Origin: Crocinitomicaceae bacterium
GTDB taxonomy: Bacteria; Bacteroidota; Bacteroidia; Flavobacteriales_D; Crocinitomicaceae
Assembly: GCA_030833845.1 (NCBI GenBank)
Contig: JAURGK010000010.1
Location: forward strand, 1 to 64,000
Direction of reading: 5' to 3'
Length of the DNA: 64,000 nucleotides
Shown: piece by piece, positions 21,868 to 28,540 of the stretch
Position numbering within the stretch: the stretch's first letter is position 1
Layout: each line of letters starts with the position of its first letter
Made by a program: the position numbers and the translations under genes
Notes under the pieces: model-generated
Told to the model about the DNA's origin: nothing
What the model saw: the letters and a program-made list of their open reading frames with translations, nothing else
Databases searched by the model: none

Positions 21868-21890
21868 AAGTATCCTTAAGATGAAATGAA

Positions 21891-21916
21891 AAGCCCCGAG
21901 TTCGGGGCTTTTTTTA
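21891..21916 (+). terminator. Rho-independent terminator after the giant gene
   Basis: AAGCCCCGA (21891-21899) pairs with TCGGGGCTT (21902-21910) and is followed by a T-run. It lies 23 bases after the stop codon at 21867 and before the start of the next gene at 21928. Confidence 0.9.
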
Positions 21917-21927
21917 TACTTTTAAAA

Positions 21928-23667
21928 ATGCATTTTATATATTTATTCTTTTGCATTTTCTTCGGCTTGTACACTTACGGGCAGACTTCATGGCCCAATG
22001 AACGATTTTCGGCTTGGCAAAATTCGGGTTGCCAACACCAATTTGATTCATTGTTTGTGGATATCAACATGGCTGACTACAATATTGATGCTACAGGACA
22101 GGCGGATTGTTCAGCAATCTTACAAAGTGTTCTCAATCAATATGATCATGTACGTATTCAATTCAACGCCGGTACGTTTAAAATTGAGCAGCCAATTGTT
22201 TTGAAATCTCATCAGGTGCTTGCTGGCGCCGGACCAGATCTAACACATTTTATAGTGGATTTAAATGGTGCCGGACATGCTTTTTCTGCCAGCGGCACAA
22301 TAGAGCAGCAGTATTATTCTGTAAATGCACCATTAGTGAAAAATCAGAATTTTGTAGTTTGTACACAGCAAAATTTTGATGTTGGCAATTGGCTATACCT
22401 TCAAAATGCTGATTCTGCTTTGGTTACATCAACTTGGGCGCTTGGTTCAACGGGGCAAATGATTCAAATTGATCACATTTCTGGCGATACCCTTTGGCTT
22501 GAAAAGCCGCTTAGACGCAGCTATAGTGGTGAAACATGGGTGCGAAAAATGAATCCCTTAACAGAAATAGGTTTGAGATGTTTTTCCATAGAGAGGCAAG
22601 ACGATACAGCTCCGATTCAAACAAGTAACATTCGCTTCTTTGGTCTTGTAGAAGCACAGGTTGAATCCATTTATTCATACAAATGCAATTTTGCACATCT
22701 TGAGCTCACGAGTTGCGCGCATGTTACAGTCAGAAAATGCTTTTATAATGAAGGATTTACTTATGGTGGTGGAGGTAGGGCTTATGGTGTAGTGTTGCAA
22801 CAGACGAGTGGTGATAACTTAATTGAAGATAATATTTTTAAGCACCTTAGGCATTCGGTATTGTTTCAGTCTGGAGCCAATGGAAATGTCTGCGCTTTTA
22901 ATTTTTCAACCGATGCGTATTGGGAAGAAAGTCTATTGACTGCAAATGCTGCTGGTGAAATAGTTTTGCATGGTAATTACCCGTATTCAAATTTAATAGA
23001 ACAAAATAGCGTTGGAAATATCGTCATAGACAATTCGCACGGTGCCAATGGCCCAGATAATTTATTCTATAGAAATAGGGCTACGCTCTATGGCATCTTT
23101 TTTAGTGATCAAAGCTCACCAAACCAACTTTTTATCGGTAATCATGTGACCAACACTAATTTTCCTTATAATTTTGTCAATTGGACCATTTCAGGTACAG
23201 GTCACTTTCTTTTTGCCAATAATAACAAAGGAAATATTGTTCCCTCAAATACAAGTTTTGTTTCAGATACTTCCTTTGCTTATACGGAGAAGCCTTCTTT
23301 TGTGAATTTAGGCGTTTGGCTGCACATTGGCGATCAGCCAGCAATTATTTTACCAATCCCGGCAGAAAATCGTTGGTTGAATCAAGCCTATTTTTCCACT
23401 TCCTGCAATCAAACGGATTTGTCATTGTATGATCCAAAACTTACTTTTTTAAGCTATCCAAATCCTGTACAAGGACAACTATCCATAACTTGTTCCAAGC
23501 CTTACTTTGGAAATGTATTTTTATTCAATAGTGCGGGCCAAATTTTGGGCAAATACCTAATGCATGGCAGTGAAATGCATATCAATACAGAGGAATTTAA
23601 AGAAGGTGTTTATCTTTTAAATTTTGAGCAATCCAATGGAGTATTGAAAATGATCAAAATCAATTGA
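21928..23667 (+). CDS. Secreted parallel beta-helix protein with T9SS sorting tail
   Basis: The protein is 579 residues from the ATG at 21928. The frame is open from 21886, but that stretch is the terminator of the previous gene, while 21928 gives a proper signal peptide (MHFIYLFFCIFFGLYTYGQ). Residues of about 40-100 resemble the pectate-lyase-superfamily N-terminus (DYNIDATGQADCSAILQSVL, then IQFNAGTFKIEQPIVL). About 130-440 are rich in Asn ladders and short beta strands (GDNLIEDNIFKHLR, SNLIEQNSVGNIVI, DNLFYRNRATLYG), as in right-handed beta helices. The type A T9SS domain ends the protein (SYPNPVQGQLSI, KEGVYLLNFEQ). It probably binds or cleaves a polysaccharide, but no catalytic set can be named. 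Confidence 0.85.
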   Translation: MHFIYLFFCIFFGLYTYGQTSWPNERFSAWQNSGCQHQFDSLFVDINMADYNIDATGQADCSAILQSVLNQYDHVRIQFNAGTFKIEQPIVLKSHQVLAGAGPDLTHFIVDLNGAGHAFSASGTIEQQYYSVNAPLVKNQNFVVCTQQNFDVGNWLYLQNADSALVTSTWALGSTGQMIQIDHISGDTLWLEKPLRRSYSGETWVRKMNPLTEIGLRCFSIERQDDTAPIQTSNIRFFGLVEAQVESIYSYKCNFAHLELTSCAHVTVRKCFYNEGFTYGGGGRAYGVVLQQTSGDNLIEDNIFKHLRHSVLFQSGANGNVCAFNFSTDAYWEESLLTANAAGEIVLHGNYPYSNLIEQNSVGNIVIDNSHGANGPDNLFYRNRATLYGIFFSDQSSPNQLFIGNHVTNTNFPYNFVNWTISGTGHFLFANNNKGNIVPSNTSFVSDTSFAYTEKPSFVNLGVWLHIGDQPAIILPIPAENRWLNQAYFSTSCNQTDLSLYDPKLTFLSYPNPVQGQLSITCSKPYFGNVFLFNSAGQILGKYLMHGSEMHINTEEFKEGVYLLNFEQSNGVLKMIKIN

Positions 23668-25381
23668 AGACTTGATATACGGGTAAACGCATGAAAGTTT
23701 GTTCAAAATAAGGGCTATGCTTGTAAATGAAAAATAACTGTTCCCATTCACTTTGAGCAAATTGAATGTCGAGCTTTTTGCGCTCTTCATATTGCACATT
23801 CAATAGTGGATTGTTTTCTAAAATTTCAGCAATAGTTTCCTTGAAAACATAATTTGAAAAATACTCCTTTTGTTGTAAATAGCTATCGAAATAATTCCAA
23901 CTCAGGTAGCTGTCTTCAGCCAAAGGTTGCAGGACTGCATGTAAAAATAAAGCCCCATCCTGAGCAGTAGGGATCAGGATATCTCCTGGTTTTAGTTCGA
24001 TTTCTTTTACTGCGTACTCAACTTCAATTTGACTCAATTTGAAATGTCCTTCATAGGGTCGAGGAGGTGCTTTGAAATCCTTTACGTAAGTACAAGACAC
24101 TTTTTGGCGATAGGAGGAATCAATAACTTGAAATGCAATACCATTTAATTTCAAAAATTCAATGATGCGTTTTTCTTGTCCTGCAACAATGTAATATGGG
24201 GGAATTTCAACAGAATCAGCCGCGTAATATTGATTGTAATACGGAATATATTTCTCGTAGGGTTGGGTTCGATCATACTCTAATTGGGCAAGTCCTGTAA
24301 TAGGATGAATTGGATATATGGGGGTATAACCCTTAAAATAAATGCTATCCATGGATTGATCATCAAGCTTAAAATTGAATTTAAAGAAGGTTTGATCTTT
24401 GGCCCATAGTTTGGCTTCTTTGCGTGCGTTTTCAATAGCAGTTGCGTTTTCCATTGCATAAGCAACAGTACTTTCTATGAATTGCAGGGTGGCCCCAACT
24501 CGCTCAGCAAACGCTTTTAACATATGCGTCTCAACAGTGAAGCAAAGACTATTAAATAGACTAGCATAGCCCATTGCATAACGTGGTAGGTCATTAAACG
24601 CAACAATACCCTCCTCAGGGGTCTTACCCTTTAATTCAACGTAGGGAAAGAGTTCATATCCTCCTAAACTATATTCCTTTAAATATGGTATACAGCTTGA
24701 GTAGGTCAACTCTTTGATGGATGGCGAAAGTCTTGCTTTGTTCGAACTAATATAGGTTAGGGTATAAGGGTAGTCGGCGCCATTTGAAACATGATTATCG
24801 ATAAAAATATCGGGATCAAGTGCTTGATAAATCTTTACAAAAGTCTTAGTGTTTTCTGCATCCATTTTTGTAAAATCGCGATTCAAGTCTAGGTTCTTTG
24901 CAGAACCACGAAAACCATATTCTTCTGGCCCGTTTTGATTTGCTCTGCTCGTTGAGGAACGGTTGTACATACCACCAACATTGTAGGCAGGAATAATGGC
25001 AATCAAGGGTAGTGGTCTTCCATGTTTATTTTGGGTTGGTTTACCGTCTTTTATCCAATTTTCAATCCAAATTAAGCACGCATTAATTCCATCTGGCTCT
25101 CCTGGGTGAATGGCATTATTGATGAGAATTGTAGTGCTATTTTGGGCCTTTAAAAATGTTTGAGTTGAATCCTTATCCCCATTGATAACACATAAATAAA
25201 TGGGTTGGCCATAATCCGAAGCACCCATATTAAAAAGACTTATTTCTTTGTTTTGCCGATCTAATTTTTGGAGATGTGCAATGAGCTCGGGGTAGGTAGG
25301 GGTCGAATTCCCTCTCCAATCTTGTTGTCCAAAAATATACGAATGGCCGAATAGAAAAATGAAGATCAATAATCTTGTCAT
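23660..25381 (-). CDS. M14-family zinc carboxypeptidase, exported
   Basis: This is a 573-residue metallopeptidase with a signal peptide (to about residue 18, YIFGQ). The M14 zinc ligands are present: NAIHPGEPDG gives His92 and Glu95, and FIDNHVSNG gives His197. The catalytic Glu284 lies in FTVETHML, and LNRDF is also conserved. The HPGEPDG form is that of the Bacteroidota M14 subgroup often annotated as peptidoglycan or peptide carboxypeptidases. The C-terminal 250 residues are an accessory region of unknown fold. No sorting tail is seen, so a periplasmic place is likely. Its 3' end overlaps the convergent beta-helix gene by 8 bases, with no terminator between them. Confidence 0.88.
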   Translation of the reverse strand: MTRLLIFIFLFGHSYIFGQQDWRGNSTPTYPELIAHLQKLDRQNKEISLFNMGASDYGQPIYLCVINGDKDSTQTFLKAQNSTTILINNAIHPGEPDGINACLIWIENWIKDGKPTQNKHGRPLPLIAIIPAYNVGGMYNRSSTSRANQNGPEEYGFRGSAKNLDLNRDFTKMDAENTKTFVKIYQALDPDIFIDNHVSNGADYPYTLTYISSNKARLSPSIKELTYSSCIPYLKEYSLGGYELFPYVELKGKTPEEGIVAFNDLPRYAMGYASLFNSLCFTVETHMLKAFAERVGATLQFIESTVAYAMENATAIENARKEAKLWAKDQTFFKFNFKLDDQSMDSIYFKGYTPIYPIHPITGLAQLEYDRTQPYEKYIPYYNQYYAADSVEIPPYYIVAGQEKRIIEFLKLNGIAFQVIDSSYRQKVSCTYVKDFKAPPRPYEGHFKLSQIEVEYAVKEIELKPGDILIPTAQDGALFLHAVLQPLAEDSYLSWNYFDSYLQQKEYFSNYVFKETIAEILENNPLLNVQYEERKKLDIQFAQSEWEQLFFIYKHSPYFEQTFMRLPVYQVFN

Positions 25382-25425: not shown

Positions 25426-26388
25426 CTAAAACGAAGGGCAACTTAACTTACGAAAATCTCGTACTGGTTTTTTGCATTTGAGGTTAATTCCTAAGGAAAC
25501 TTCATGAGAACCGCCGCTTACGCCATTGCCCAATGGTGATACTGTTAAATCGTAACTGTAACCAATTCTGTATTTATCGGTAGTTAGCCCTAGTGTCAAA
25601 ATAAATGCATCTTTGTTGCGGTACCAAGCACCAATAGTAAAACTTTCATATTTTAAATAGGCACCAACATTAAGCTGCTGAAAACCATTTTGATATTGAT
25701 AAATAACATTTGGAGATAAGGAGGTTGTACTTGAATAACGACCCCTTTGGCCTAATTTGATATTGGCTCCCATATGGCCGGTGAATTTAACTGGTAAGCG
25801 TGAAACACCAAGAATCAATGACTCATCAGGCCGATTGAGGTGATGGGCAGCCATTCCAAAATAAAAATTCTTACTAAAGCCTACCATGCCCGCGGAAACA
25901 TCAAAAAAGCCTCTACTGCCATTTCCCCTTGGTACATCTCCTGTTTGGTAGATGAATCCACGTCTAGGGTCTATCATGTCTCCAAATGTAAGTTTGCTCC
26001 AATCCAAGAATTTTTGATAATAAGCAGCTTGGGTACCGAACATGAGCCTAAATTTACGATTCACTTTAAGGTAATAGGAGTAGCTTGCCCCAATCATTGA
26101 GGTTTGAATGGTTCCTTGACCTTGCATGTCGTGTGTGGCCACAAGGCCCACACCGCCTGAAATATTTTTAAAATAGCTATCGTAGGCTGCTGCATAGGTG
26201 ATGTAGTTGCCTGTCAGTTGTGGCCATTCATTGCGGTAATTCAATGCAATTCTTGGACATCCGCTAGAACCTGAAAGGGCAGGGTTCAAATAAACAGGAT
26301 TTGAGTAAAATTGTGTGAATGTTGGATCTTGGGCGTAGAAAGCACCAAAGGCCATGAAACAAATGAATGTGAAAAATATACTTTTCAT
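25426..26388 (-). CDS. PorP/SprF-family type IX secretion outer-membrane protein
   Basis: This 320-residue protein has a signal peptide (FMAFGAFYAQ) followed by the hallmark of the family, DPTFTQFYSNPVYLNPALSG, then alternating beta strands of an outer-membrane barrel. PorP/SprF proteins help secrete or anchor particular T9SS substrates. It is the third gene of a minus-strand operon; its ATG lies 2 bases after the stop of the anti-sigma/barrel gene. It may be the surface partner of that signalling protein. Such proteins are often encoded beside their cargo, and the giant T9SS protein and beta-helix protein are within 12 kb, but on the other strand. Confidence 0.92.
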   Translation of the reverse strand: MKSIFFTFICFMAFGAFYAQDPTFTQFYSNPVYLNPALSGSSGCPRIALNYRNEWPQLTGNYITYAAAYDSYFKNISGGVGLVATHDMQGQGTIQTSMIGASYSYYLKVNRKFRLMFGTQAAYYQKFLDWSKLTFGDMIDPRRGFIYQTGDVPRGNGSRGFFDVSAGMVGFSKNFYFGMAAHHLNRPDESLILGVSRLPVKFTGHMGANIKLGQRGRYSSTTSLSPNVIYQYQNGFQQLNVGAYLKYESFTIGAWYRNKDAFILTLGLTTDKYRIGYSYDLTVSPLGNGVSGGSHEVSLGINLKCKKPVRDFRKLSCPSF

Positions 26389-26390
26389 AA

Positions 26391-27998
26391 CTAGAGGTTG
26401 ATATAGCGTCTGGCCTGACGACTTTGTTGAGAATAAAAGCGTAATGTCAATTGATGAAGGTAACTAGGCGTGTTCAAAGTCAAGAGTTGTTGCTGGCAAC
26501 TTTGCACTAAGATCGCTGCATGCCTGCCAAAAAATCCTGCGCTAAGTTGGTATTGTTGATTTTGAGACATTGAAAGACCAAATTGCCAGTGCTGTGTATT
26601 GAATTGCATGCCTGCATTCAATTGATTTTCAAGTCGGTTATTGGTGTAAAGCAGGTAAGGCGAAAAACGAAATTTATTGTTTCTCGATGCATATTGTGTG
26701 CCTAGGGCTAAAGTCAATTGTTGCGGTGCGCGGCTCTTTGTATATTCGATTTGATTGCCCATAGCATAGTCAAAGTGCTCAAAAACATTTTCGAGTTGCG
26801 CACTAAAAAATAGGATGGGCGTTTGTATGGCAAGTCCTATGTCTAAATCTCTGTAGAGCAACCTTCGGCCAATACCTTGCGTAGAATCTATATCGACGGT
26901 TCTCATATCAGCATTTTGAAATTCAATAAAATCAATCGTGCTAAGTTTTTGGGCGTCTACGGATCGAGCACCCATGCGCAGGCGCACAGCTGGCTCAATG
27001 ACCAAATAACGGTTGAGCATCACTTTTGGAGAGGCGATCATTCCAATTTCGTAATCCGTGATGGCTCCATTGGCATATTGCATGTAACTGGCTTGCATGC
27101 CTAGTCCGGAACGCAGGTTTCTGGCATAGCCGTCAAGACTAACTTGTTGGCCCACGAGCGCTTGTTCATCAGAAATATGGCTTCGACCAAGGCTCATGCT
27201 CTGAAATCGTGTCTGGGATTGCGACCCAACACTACTGATGTTGGCATCGATATTATTTTGACCTGGCAGGAGCAAGTCATAAGATTGATTATTAGATAGT
27301 CCCAACTCTTTTTGTGCAAATTGATTGATGCGCTGCAACTTTGAAAAATGCCTTGAAGAATTGCTTTTAAATTCTACATCTATACCAGCCAAAAACTCCG
27401 TATGATGATCGGTCCGATAACCACCAATCAATTCTGGAAAGCGATAGTTTATTTTAGTAGCCCATTTGCCTTCTTCGAGACTCAACTGCGTTGGATAGAG
27501 CCCAGCGGACGACATAGTTTGTGGATTACTTGCCACATTTAAATTGGGCGCGAGGCCCTTTTCTATTGAAGCAATTATAATATGATTTGAAAGACGCTTG
27601 TTTGGATTTTTATATAGATTGAATTGCTTGAACTGCTTGAATTGCTTCGGTAATGGTTTGTTTATTTTGAGTGTGGATGCTTTGTCATTTGAGCTATTGC
27701 TTTTATTTTGACCTTGTTCAGAGTAGGTCATGAAATTGACAATCCCCAATAATAAGAGCAGCAAGGCTGCCGCATGATAATATTTAAAAGCAAATTGTTT
27801 TTTGCGATACAGTGCTGTTTTTGGTTCAAAGGTGATGGGTCCTGAGCTAAAATTAGCTTCTTTCCACATTTCCTGTTCTAGTAAGAGTTCCGGTTGAGAT
27901 GCAAGAAAGTTATCGAGCAATTGTTGTTGCTCGGCACTAAGATTTCCTTCAACAGAATCAAAAAGCCACTGATCTAAATTTTCTAATGTAGGTTTCAT
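26391..27998 (-). CDS. Anti-sigma-like domain joined by one membrane helix to a putative PorP/SprF-like beta-barrel
   Basis: This 535-residue protein appears to span the envelope. Residues 1-72 look like a cytoplasmic anti-sigma or zf-HC2-like segment without Cys (NLDQWLFDSVEGNLSAEQQQ, then FLASQPELLLEQEMWKEA). Residues 74-91 are one membrane helix (HAAALLLLLLGIVNFM). Residues 93-165 are a polar linker with KQF repeated three times. From about 170 to the end there are alternating strands like those of outer-membrane barrels (WQFGLSMSQNQQYQLSAGFF, LHQLTLRFYSQQ). The start overlaps the sigma-factor stop as ATGA, so the two are translationally coupled. I infer an anti-sigma factor whose sensor is the C-terminal barrel. 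The barrel and its PorP kinship are judged by eye. Confidence 0.65.
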   Translation of the reverse strand: MKPTLENLDQWLFDSVEGNLSAEQQQLLDNFLASQPELLLEQEMWKEANFSSGPITFEPKTALYRKKQFAFKYYHAAALLLLLLGIVNFMTYSEQGQNKSNSSNDKASTLKINKPLPKQFKQFKQFNLYKNPNKRLSNHIIIASIEKGLAPNLNVASNPQTMSSAGLYPTQLSLEEGKWATKINYRFPELIGGYRTDHHTEFLAGIDVEFKSNSSRHFSKLQRINQFAQKELGLSNNQSYDLLLPGQNNIDANISSVGSQSQTRFQSMSLGRSHISDEQALVGQQVSLDGYARNLRSGLGMQASYMQYANGAITDYEIGMIASPKVMLNRYLVIEPAVRLRMGARSVDAQKLSTIDFIEFQNADMRTVDIDSTQGIGRRLLYRDLDIGLAIQTPILFFSAQLENVFEHFDYAMGNQIEYTKSRAPQQLTLALGTQYASRNNKFRFSPYLLYTNNRLENQLNAGMQFNTQHWQFGLSMSQNQQYQLSAGFFGRHAAILVQSCQQQLLTLNTPSYLHQLTLRFYSQQSRQARRYINL

Positions 27999-28486
27999 GA
28001 AGCCAATACAAATTGTCCTTTAATGCGTTTTTTGACTTTGAGACGCGCTCTAAAAAGATATACTTTCACTTGGGCCTCGGTTAAGGATAAGAAAGTCCCG
28101 ATTTCTTGATAAGTATAGCCTTCTAAGTCTCTGAGCAACAGGATGCTTTTTTGCAATGGTGGTAGTCCTTCAACCAATAACTGTACGAGTTGTTGGTTTT
28201 CAAAATTTGTGTCACAATTGCTTTTTTGATTCCAATAGAGCGATTCCAAATGTTGTTGTTTCACTTTTTCGCGCTTGACATGATTGAGCATCAGGTTGTT
28301 GGCGCAAGTAAAAAGCCAAGATTTGGATTTATCCAAAGGAATTTGCTTCCTGTTTACCCACAATTTTTCAAAGCAATCTTGTACAACATCACGCGCATAG
28401 TCTACATCTCTTGAGAAATGAAGGCAAAACCTATACAGCGCATCGCTGTGATGGTCCACGCAGATATTGTAGTCGGTGCGATTCAA
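27995..28486 (-). CDS. ECF-type RNA polymerase sigma factor
   Basis: This is a 163-residue sigma-70 family factor of the extracytoplasmic-function type. Region 2 spans about 8-75 (DALYRFCLHFSRDVDYARDV, then CFEKLWVNRKQIP and SWLFTCANNLMLNHVKRE). Region 4 spans about 105-155 (LPPLQKSILLLRDLEGYTYQ, then EIGTFLSLTEAQVKVYLFRA). It is the first gene of an operon with an anti-sigma-like barrel protein and PorP/SprF, so it is probably held inactive by that membrane protein. A perfect palindrome lies 40 bases upstream of its start. The closest known parallel is SigP of Porphyromonas gingivalis, which controls T9SS genes, but orthology is not shown. Confidence 0.9.
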   Translation of the reverse strand: MNRTDYNICVDHHSDALYRFCLHFSRDVDYARDVVQDCFEKLWVNRKQIPLDKSKSWLFTCANNLMLNHVKREKVKQQHLESLYWNQKSNCDTNFENQQLVQLLVEGLPPLQKSILLLRDLEGYTYQEIGTFLSLTEAQVKVYLFRARLKVKKRIKGQFVLAS

Positions 28487-28525
28487 AATTGTGTCTGACA
28501 GTAGAACAATTTGTTGGTTGTGAAA

Positions 28526-28540
28526 GTTACACTGTGTAAC
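28526..28540. promoter_or_regulatory. Perfect 15-base palindrome upstream of the sigma-factor operon
   Basis: GTTACAC-T-GTGTAAC is a perfect inverted repeat of 7+1+7, 40 bases before the sigma start codon at 28486. No TAnnTTTG element is seen in 28487-28589. It may be an operator for an unknown regulator. Confidence 0.5.

Follow-up and report, generated by a model that had tools for sequence, protein, structure and literature searches.

A three-gene operon lies in a 64,000-nucleotide stretch of an aquatic Crocinitomicaceae bacterium (contig JAURGK010000010.1; the whole stretch is called the window, and the genome that contains it the own genome). The genes for an extracytoplasmic function (ECF) sigma factor, a fusion protein and a PorP/SprF protein follow one another in that order, and form one compact unit on the minus strand. 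Modelling indicates that the fusion appears to join, in one chain, an anti-sigma domain in the cytoplasm to a barrel in the outer membrane by way of a single membrane helix and a tether. We lean towards reading the operon as a self-regulating surface-to-cytoplasm switch, which would sense the state of type-B cargo and PorP shuttles of the type IX secretion system (T9SS). Judged by its predicted features, the fused architecture is already known and matches the Dma class (PMC13088901; this and the other papers are cited from their accessible parts). No earlier description was found of a Dma-type barrel that is itself of the PorP/SprF type. The three genes are:

27995–28486, minus strand: ECF sigma factor, 163 residues, TTG start (Pfam and NCBIfam)
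26391–27998, minus strand: anti-sigma/PorP-type barrel fusion, predicted to be dual-membrane, 535 residues (open reading frame, AlphaFold2 model, relatives)
25426–26388, minus strand: PorP/SprF protein of the CPSF-tail subfamily, which also includes the gldJ-linked PorP (PF11751, TIGR03519)

A first-pass annotation of this DNA had placed the three genes at 25426–28486, with an ATGA overlap between the sigma and fusion genes and a 2-base gap between the fusion and PorP genes, all of which is correct; the 4-base overlap is at 27995–27998. Its naming of the first and third products also holds: Sigma70_r2 and Sigma70_r4_2 match the sigma protein above their Pfam cut-offs, as PF11751 does the PorP (200.7 bits; 236.7 bits for TIGR03519). 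Among NCBIfam models, sigma_PG0214 fits the sigma factor best, though its 119.3 bits do not reach the cut-off of 130. The predicted parts of the fusion are:

27858–27977, minus strand: predicted anti-sigma domain of three helices, residues 8–47 (AlphaFold2, invariant residues)
27717–27782, minus strand: inner-membrane helix, residues 73–94 (AlphaFold2; basic residues before it)
27279–27716, minus strand: tether, mostly disordered, residues 95–240 (predicted local distance difference test, pLDDT)
26433–27278, minus strand: hatch and 14-strand PorP/SprF-type barrel, residues 241–522 (model, profiles, fold matches, tree)
26394–26432, minus strand: short, basic C-tail without cysteine, residues 523–535 (tail comparison)

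In the AlphaFold2 model, pLDDT exceeds 90 for residues 1–40 and is 83 for residues 41–50. Residues W11, F13, D14, E17–L20, and W45 are invariant in 55 sequences, and residues 1–50 are conserved above the tether, the membrane helix, and the barrel. The N-terminal part of the fusion profile further picks up ECF-linked proteins belonging to the same class; of six scanned, two reach the zf-HC2 cut-off. The membrane helix of the first-pass annotation is present, with a modelled span of residues 73–94 in place of 74–91, and the basic residues before it favour a cytoplasmic N-terminus. Confidence falls below 50 across residues 95–218 and 226–236; the distance from residue 95 to residue 243 is 149 residues in the window's fusion, and ranges from 137 to 273 among the 55 sequences. 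The long region of strands noted earlier is a predicted barrel, with 14 major strands between residues 264 and 522, mostly at a pLDDT of about 90.

Profile comparisons and a tree indicate that the barrel is, for the fusion family, of the PorP/SprF type. An initial search with the fusion pulled in PorP-sized frames via about residues 284–476. PF11751 matches 23 of the 55 aligned fusions (102 bits for the fusion of locus L108, 84 for that of L179), and is the sole Pfam family that matches them at an E-value of 0.001; the assignment of the barrel follows from these 23 matches together with the profile comparisons. The fusion-PorP comparison gave 96.9% within the genus, and with wider alignments (hhalign) 99.8%, with an E-value of 3.7e-28 over 290 columns. 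In a tree of 64 barrels, built quickly by a brief search that included several long rows and rooted at the midpoint, the 24 fusion barrels fall on one side of a branch with a Shimodaira–Hasegawa-like approximate likelihood ratio test (SH-aLRT) support of 100. The 20 operon PorPs and six gldJ-linked PorPs form one subfamily (98), in which both kinds are interleaved. The first-pass annotation's link to the T9SS is thus strengthened, since the barrel itself is of the PorP/SprF type.

The fold points in several directions. Foldseek searches of the PDB with both models returned many barrels of several kinds; FadL and hydrocarbon channels of the TodX/CymD type rank with the top matches. These matches would suit a ligand receptor, in which a FadL-fold barrel binds and reports a small hydrophobic or other extracellular compound. 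We regard this reading as quite improbable, because PorV, also a 14-strand FadL-family barrel (PMC9143113), fits the fold equally well, so that the fold is no pointer to a ligand, and because the kinship in sequence is to PorP, whose known partners are proteins (PMC9143113). PorV was rejected as the source of the barrel, with no profile match and an hhalign value of 0.6%, from a PorV alignment of four rows, three of them cut. By sequence, the PorP profile matched no solved structure, and three solved-structure matches to the fusion profile (E-values 0.005 to 0.66) were judged to be chance.

The gene order, for which the first-pass annotation had proposed a survey of Bacteroidota genomes, recurs among relatives. 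Of the outcomes that would have told against the first-pass reading, neither a C-terminal domain other than a barrel nor a lack of conserved gene order came about. Complete fusion reading frames of 511–662 residues occur in 64 of 74 named loci; the other ten were left uncounted, eight being cut by contig ends, one (L132) being a split form, and one (L124) too short. The sigma gene lies directly upstream of the fusion in 64/64 complete loci (gap −4 to 15 bases), and PorP directly downstream in 59 of the 61 loci whose sequence runs on for 250 bases or more (gap −11 to 41). This recurrence rules out chance or an assembly artefact as the source of the order. It also bears on a further reading, that the fusion is a structural anchor tying a type-B adhesin to the inner membrane, with an N-terminal domain that is no longer regulatory. 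A tethered PorP is conceivable, since PorP has been proposed to be anchored to the cell wall via PorE (PMC9143113). Such an anchor is nonetheless very improbable given the constant sigma neighbour, the conserved sigma promoter (see below), and the fact that the N-terminal 50 residues are the better conserved part of the chain.

Most of the named relatives are metagenome assemblies with Crocinitomicaceae or Flavobacteriales in their titles; a few titled Sphingomonadales, Saccharospirillaceae, or Chryseobacterium are probably mislabelled bins, because their loci are closely akin to the rest. In an order-level survey, a single match spans nearly the whole fusion profile in at least 84 of 299 genomes, and others match in pieces. 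In an even sample of the phylum, 30 of 395 genomes match the fusion at an E-value of 0.001 or better, and the own genome is the only one with a profile-spanning match. A full-length fusion was also seen in another family (G694:C137:91-1857; family code f9, 64% complete), which reflects either transfer or a binning error.

The partner PorP is the more uniform of the two barrels, with 71–92% identity to the window within the genus, versus 26–58% for the fusion. Its end is distinctive:

25429–25476, minus strand: PorP C-tail with C305 and C317, ending C-x11-C-P-S-F (tail comparison)

The CPSF end is found in 55/55 untruncated operon PorPs of the named loci (four more are cut by contig ends), and in 6/6 gldJ-linked PorPs. 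In the own genome, a close paralogue of the operon PorP lies directly before gldJ, beside porU and porV; a PorP also precedes a GldJ-like gene, by eye, in G019, G008, G002, and G001, and in G038 GldJ was confirmed. Two tail cysteines, spaced C-x11-C, occur in all 26 operon and gldJ-linked PorPs of the tree (that of L132 excepted). None of the 24 tree fusions has two, and two have one within the last 25 residues; among the 55 aligned fusions, none has a CPSF end and one has a single late cysteine. In Flavobacterium johnsoniae, the C-x-C motif of the SprF tail forms a disulfide with GldK, which joins SprF to the gliding track (PMC12635249). PorP/SprF proteins are described as shuttles and anchors of type-B cargo, a single orphan shuttle handling three orphan cargoes (PMC12618676; PMC9143113). 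The own genome has 22 matches to the type-B C-terminal domain (CTD) at an E-value of 0.001 or better, and seven PorPs, three of which sit directly after a type-B CTD gene.

In the mechanism that we favour, the Dma-type N-terminal domain would bind the ECF sigma factor and hold it at the inner membrane. The fusion would cross this membrane once, the mostly disordered tether of about 149 residues would span the periplasm, and the PorP/SprF-type barrel would sit in the outer membrane, so that both membranes are joined by one chain. The barrel would be a non-travelling shuttle that serves as a sensor; the cysteine tail by which SprF is coupled to the gliding track is missing from it. When it binds type-B cargo, or touches a partner PorP that is loaded or unloaded, the hatch or the tether would change, and sigma would be released by conformational change, tension, or proteolysis. 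Freed sigma would then transcribe its own operon, track-type PorP included, and so provide more shuttle (positive autoregulation); it may also drive a few lineage-specific outer-membrane proteins and lipoproteins. The signal is most likely the loading or supply of type-B cargo shuttles, which we infer from the ancestry of the barrel, the constant PorP partner, and the missing track tail. A different reading takes the barrel, leashed to the inner membrane and unable to join the moving track, as a gauge of both mechanics and occupancy at the T9SS and gliding surface. Engagement by cargo or track-borne PorP, with lateral movement, would stretch the tether and free sigma, and surface motor activity would be read as a transcription signal; we hold this to be improbable.

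The shuttle-sensing switch would gain its self-regulating character from a conserved element upstream of the sigma gene:

28502–28531, minus strand: candidate ECF-type promoter TGTAACTTT-N13-TTGTNNTA (conserved spaced element upstream of sigma)

In the 26 loci first read, GTAAC-N16-TTGT precedes every sigma gene, with the full TTGTNNTA (the strict form, with TA) in 25. Across 89 sigma genes preceded by 60 or more bases of sequence, some genomes being represented twice, the strict form is present in 69 and GTAACTTT is kept in 87 (18 of the 20 strict-form misses by eye), the two without it being those of L126 and L132. A promoter fixed in this way before sigma indicates that autoregulation is probable. 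The TTG start codon of sigma (28484–28486) lies 15 bases past the −10 element in the window, and TTG is the start in 25 of the 26 loci by script and in the last (L089) by eye. If the proposed promoter is correct, the leader of the sigma mRNA is only a few bases long. A palindrome in the same region (GTTACAC-T-GTGTAAC, 28526–28540) was dropped, its GTTAC arm being present at just 22 of 61 sites.

A stricter form of the promoter gave 30 exact matches (in 20 of 36 genomes), compared with one for the reversed pattern. Seventeen are at the sigma-fusion-PorP operon and 13 elsewhere; 11 of the latter directly precede a protein with an export-like N-terminus (by eye), one is truncated where its contig ends, and at one there is no gene. 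A Pfam scan of 10 proteins from nine of these 13 sites identified a PorP in G046 (L232) and an OMP_b-brl_2 protein (L237), with a borderline DUF481 match (L219) and a Big_1 match below cut-off (L239); the other six had no Pfam match. In relatives, the regulon-like sites stand before a range of outer-membrane protein and lipoprotein genes, and not before T9SS core genes, which is what an outer-membrane assembly sensor would lead one to expect. In such a sensor, the barrel would only probe BAM (the β-barrel assembly machinery) and the envelope, failed insertion or folding would lead to degradation of the tether or barrel and free sigma, and the T9SS ancestry would be incidental. The rise in vesicle production when dma1 or dma2 is deleted in Bacteroides thetaiotaomicron (PMC13088901) also suits this reading. 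The strict pairing with one special PorP subfamily (59/61 loci; tail in 55/55 untruncated proteins) is unexpected of a general stress probe, and we consider the assembly sensor possible but rather unlikely.

Several observations weigh against the cargo- and shuttle-sensing switch. PorP is absent from two loci, L128 and L131. Four same-genus genomes that are at least 93% complete (G019, G506, G632, and G660) have no full-length fusion match, because of which the operon seems dispensable. G019, which is 100% complete, lacks the fusion and yet has the motif before a 227-residue protein; this motif may be read by another sigma factor, or the operon may be missing from the assembly. The PorP/SprF family search that the first-pass annotation had suggested for the barrel succeeded for part of the family and failed for the window's own fusion, which has no Pfam match, PF11751 included, and is one of the 32 of 55 aligned fusions that do not reach PF11751. 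The tail argument is weakened by certain other PorPs, which carry one late cysteine and in one case two, and by the spacing in the partner PorP, which is C-x11-C as against C-x-C in SprF. Finally, a weight matrix found no comparable motif at gldJ-porP (six genomes), or at porP-gldKLMN, porU, or two type-B genes of the own genome, nor did it find one before the further PorP genes tested or before the gene for the downstream peptidase.

The last result also goes against the SigP-like control of T9SS genes raised by the first-pass annotation. In the own genome, the exact promoter form matches once, at the operon itself, and the three further matches with one mismatch were discounted, as they fall below the reversed control (14); these exact and one-mismatch searches are what covered the remaining T9SS genes of the own genome. 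Because the promoter was not found upstream of the tested T9SS genes, the T9SS itself does not seem to be under the control of sigma. A different element, an AAACCT...CGTT-like stretch, recurs at the start of gldJ-linked porP (about L183:5600-5650, also L198, L189, and L199); it could be an ECF promoter of another, perhaps SigP-like, type.

In FecIRA-type signalling, the outer-membrane barrel, inner-membrane anti-sigma factor, and ECF sigma factor are separate proteins, and act with TonB and a signalling domain; the same three elements are present here, with barrel and anti-sigma factor in one chain. The first-pass annotation had set this single chain against the separate FecIRA proteins; the fused architecture is not new in kind, the Dma proteins of Bacteroides having already been so described (PMC13088901). 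According to that report, Dma proteins are confined to Bacteroidota and have an N-terminal sigma-binding domain, a membrane helix, a disordered tether, and a C-terminal barrel, beside an ECF21 sigma factor. The likeness to Dma1 and Dma2, with Das1 and Das2, lies in the domain order, the disordered tether, and the adjacent ECF sigma gene, and for Dma2 also in the three-gene operon (PMC13088901). The present fusion would differ, in a comparison with Dma1 and Dma2 by description, in its PorP/SprF-type barrel and in a third gene that encodes a T9SS PorP. No PorP/SprF barrel fused to an anti-sigma factor was reported in the literature searched, although a 2024 paper on Dma1 may mention one. With the shuttles SprF, Fjoh_1677, and PorP, the barrel shares kinship in sequence and a predicted 14-strand FadL-type fold. 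These shuttles begin with a signal peptide, whereas the fusion begins with an anti-sigma domain, membrane helix, and tether, and lacks their cysteine pair in the C-tail.

The nearest T9SS signalling path found is PorA-PorXY-SigP of Porphyromonas gingivalis, in which a cell-surface T9SS element likewise feeds an ECF sigma factor (PMC7712824). Unlike the fusion, this path works through a CTD protein and a two-component system, and SigP controls T9SS genes (PMC7712824), whereas the operon promoter was not found at those tested. Several T9SS genes of Flavobacterium psychrophilum are preceded by an ECF-type motif that has a CGT box (PMC9723704), a −10 element unlike that of the operon. How the surface CTD protein of P. 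gingivalis influences the two-component system was left open by its authors, as far as the accessible text goes (PMC7712824). Since the anti-sigma factor of the operon seems to include a shuttle-type barrel of its own, T9SS-surface sensing in Bacteroidota can be put to the test with a single protein, promoter, and partner. The operon suggests that Dma-type proteins can draw their sensor barrel from a secretion-system family, and that a gene switch may be informed directly of conditions at the cell surface.

One locus may represent the unfused state and is the sole case seen. L132:5331-7519 encodes an ECF sigma factor, a 220-residue anti-sigma factor with a membrane helix and tether and without a barrel, and finally a separate PorP that begins with a signal-peptide-like segment of its own. 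In the tree, this PorP is the first branch on the PorP side. Its anti-sigma protein matched four of the 395 phylum genomes, the own and three partial matches (E-values 1.7e-5 to 6.4e-4). N-terminal matches in G204, G252, and G169 were rejected as split forms, there being no PorP match within the stretches read. Second ECF/anti-sigma pairs in L207–L214 and L259 were rejected as fused barrels, since their proteins (322–439 residues) are too short for a 14-strand barrel; in several, among the matches listed, a separate outer-membrane-looking gene adjoins (by eye). The pair at L259:843-3535 lies in the own genome, a few kilobases before porP-gldKLMN, and consists of a second ECF sigma factor and a 350-residue tethered anti-sigma-like protein, too short for a large barrel, with a separate outer-membrane-looking gene next to it.

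Around the operon, no tRNA was found in the window. The gene directly downstream (23660–25381, minus strand) is a secreted peptidase-like gene by eye, with no Pfam match. Beside it, at 21886–23667 on the plus strand, is a gene whose product carries a T9SS C-terminal sorting domain and has a pectate-lyase-like match below cut-off.

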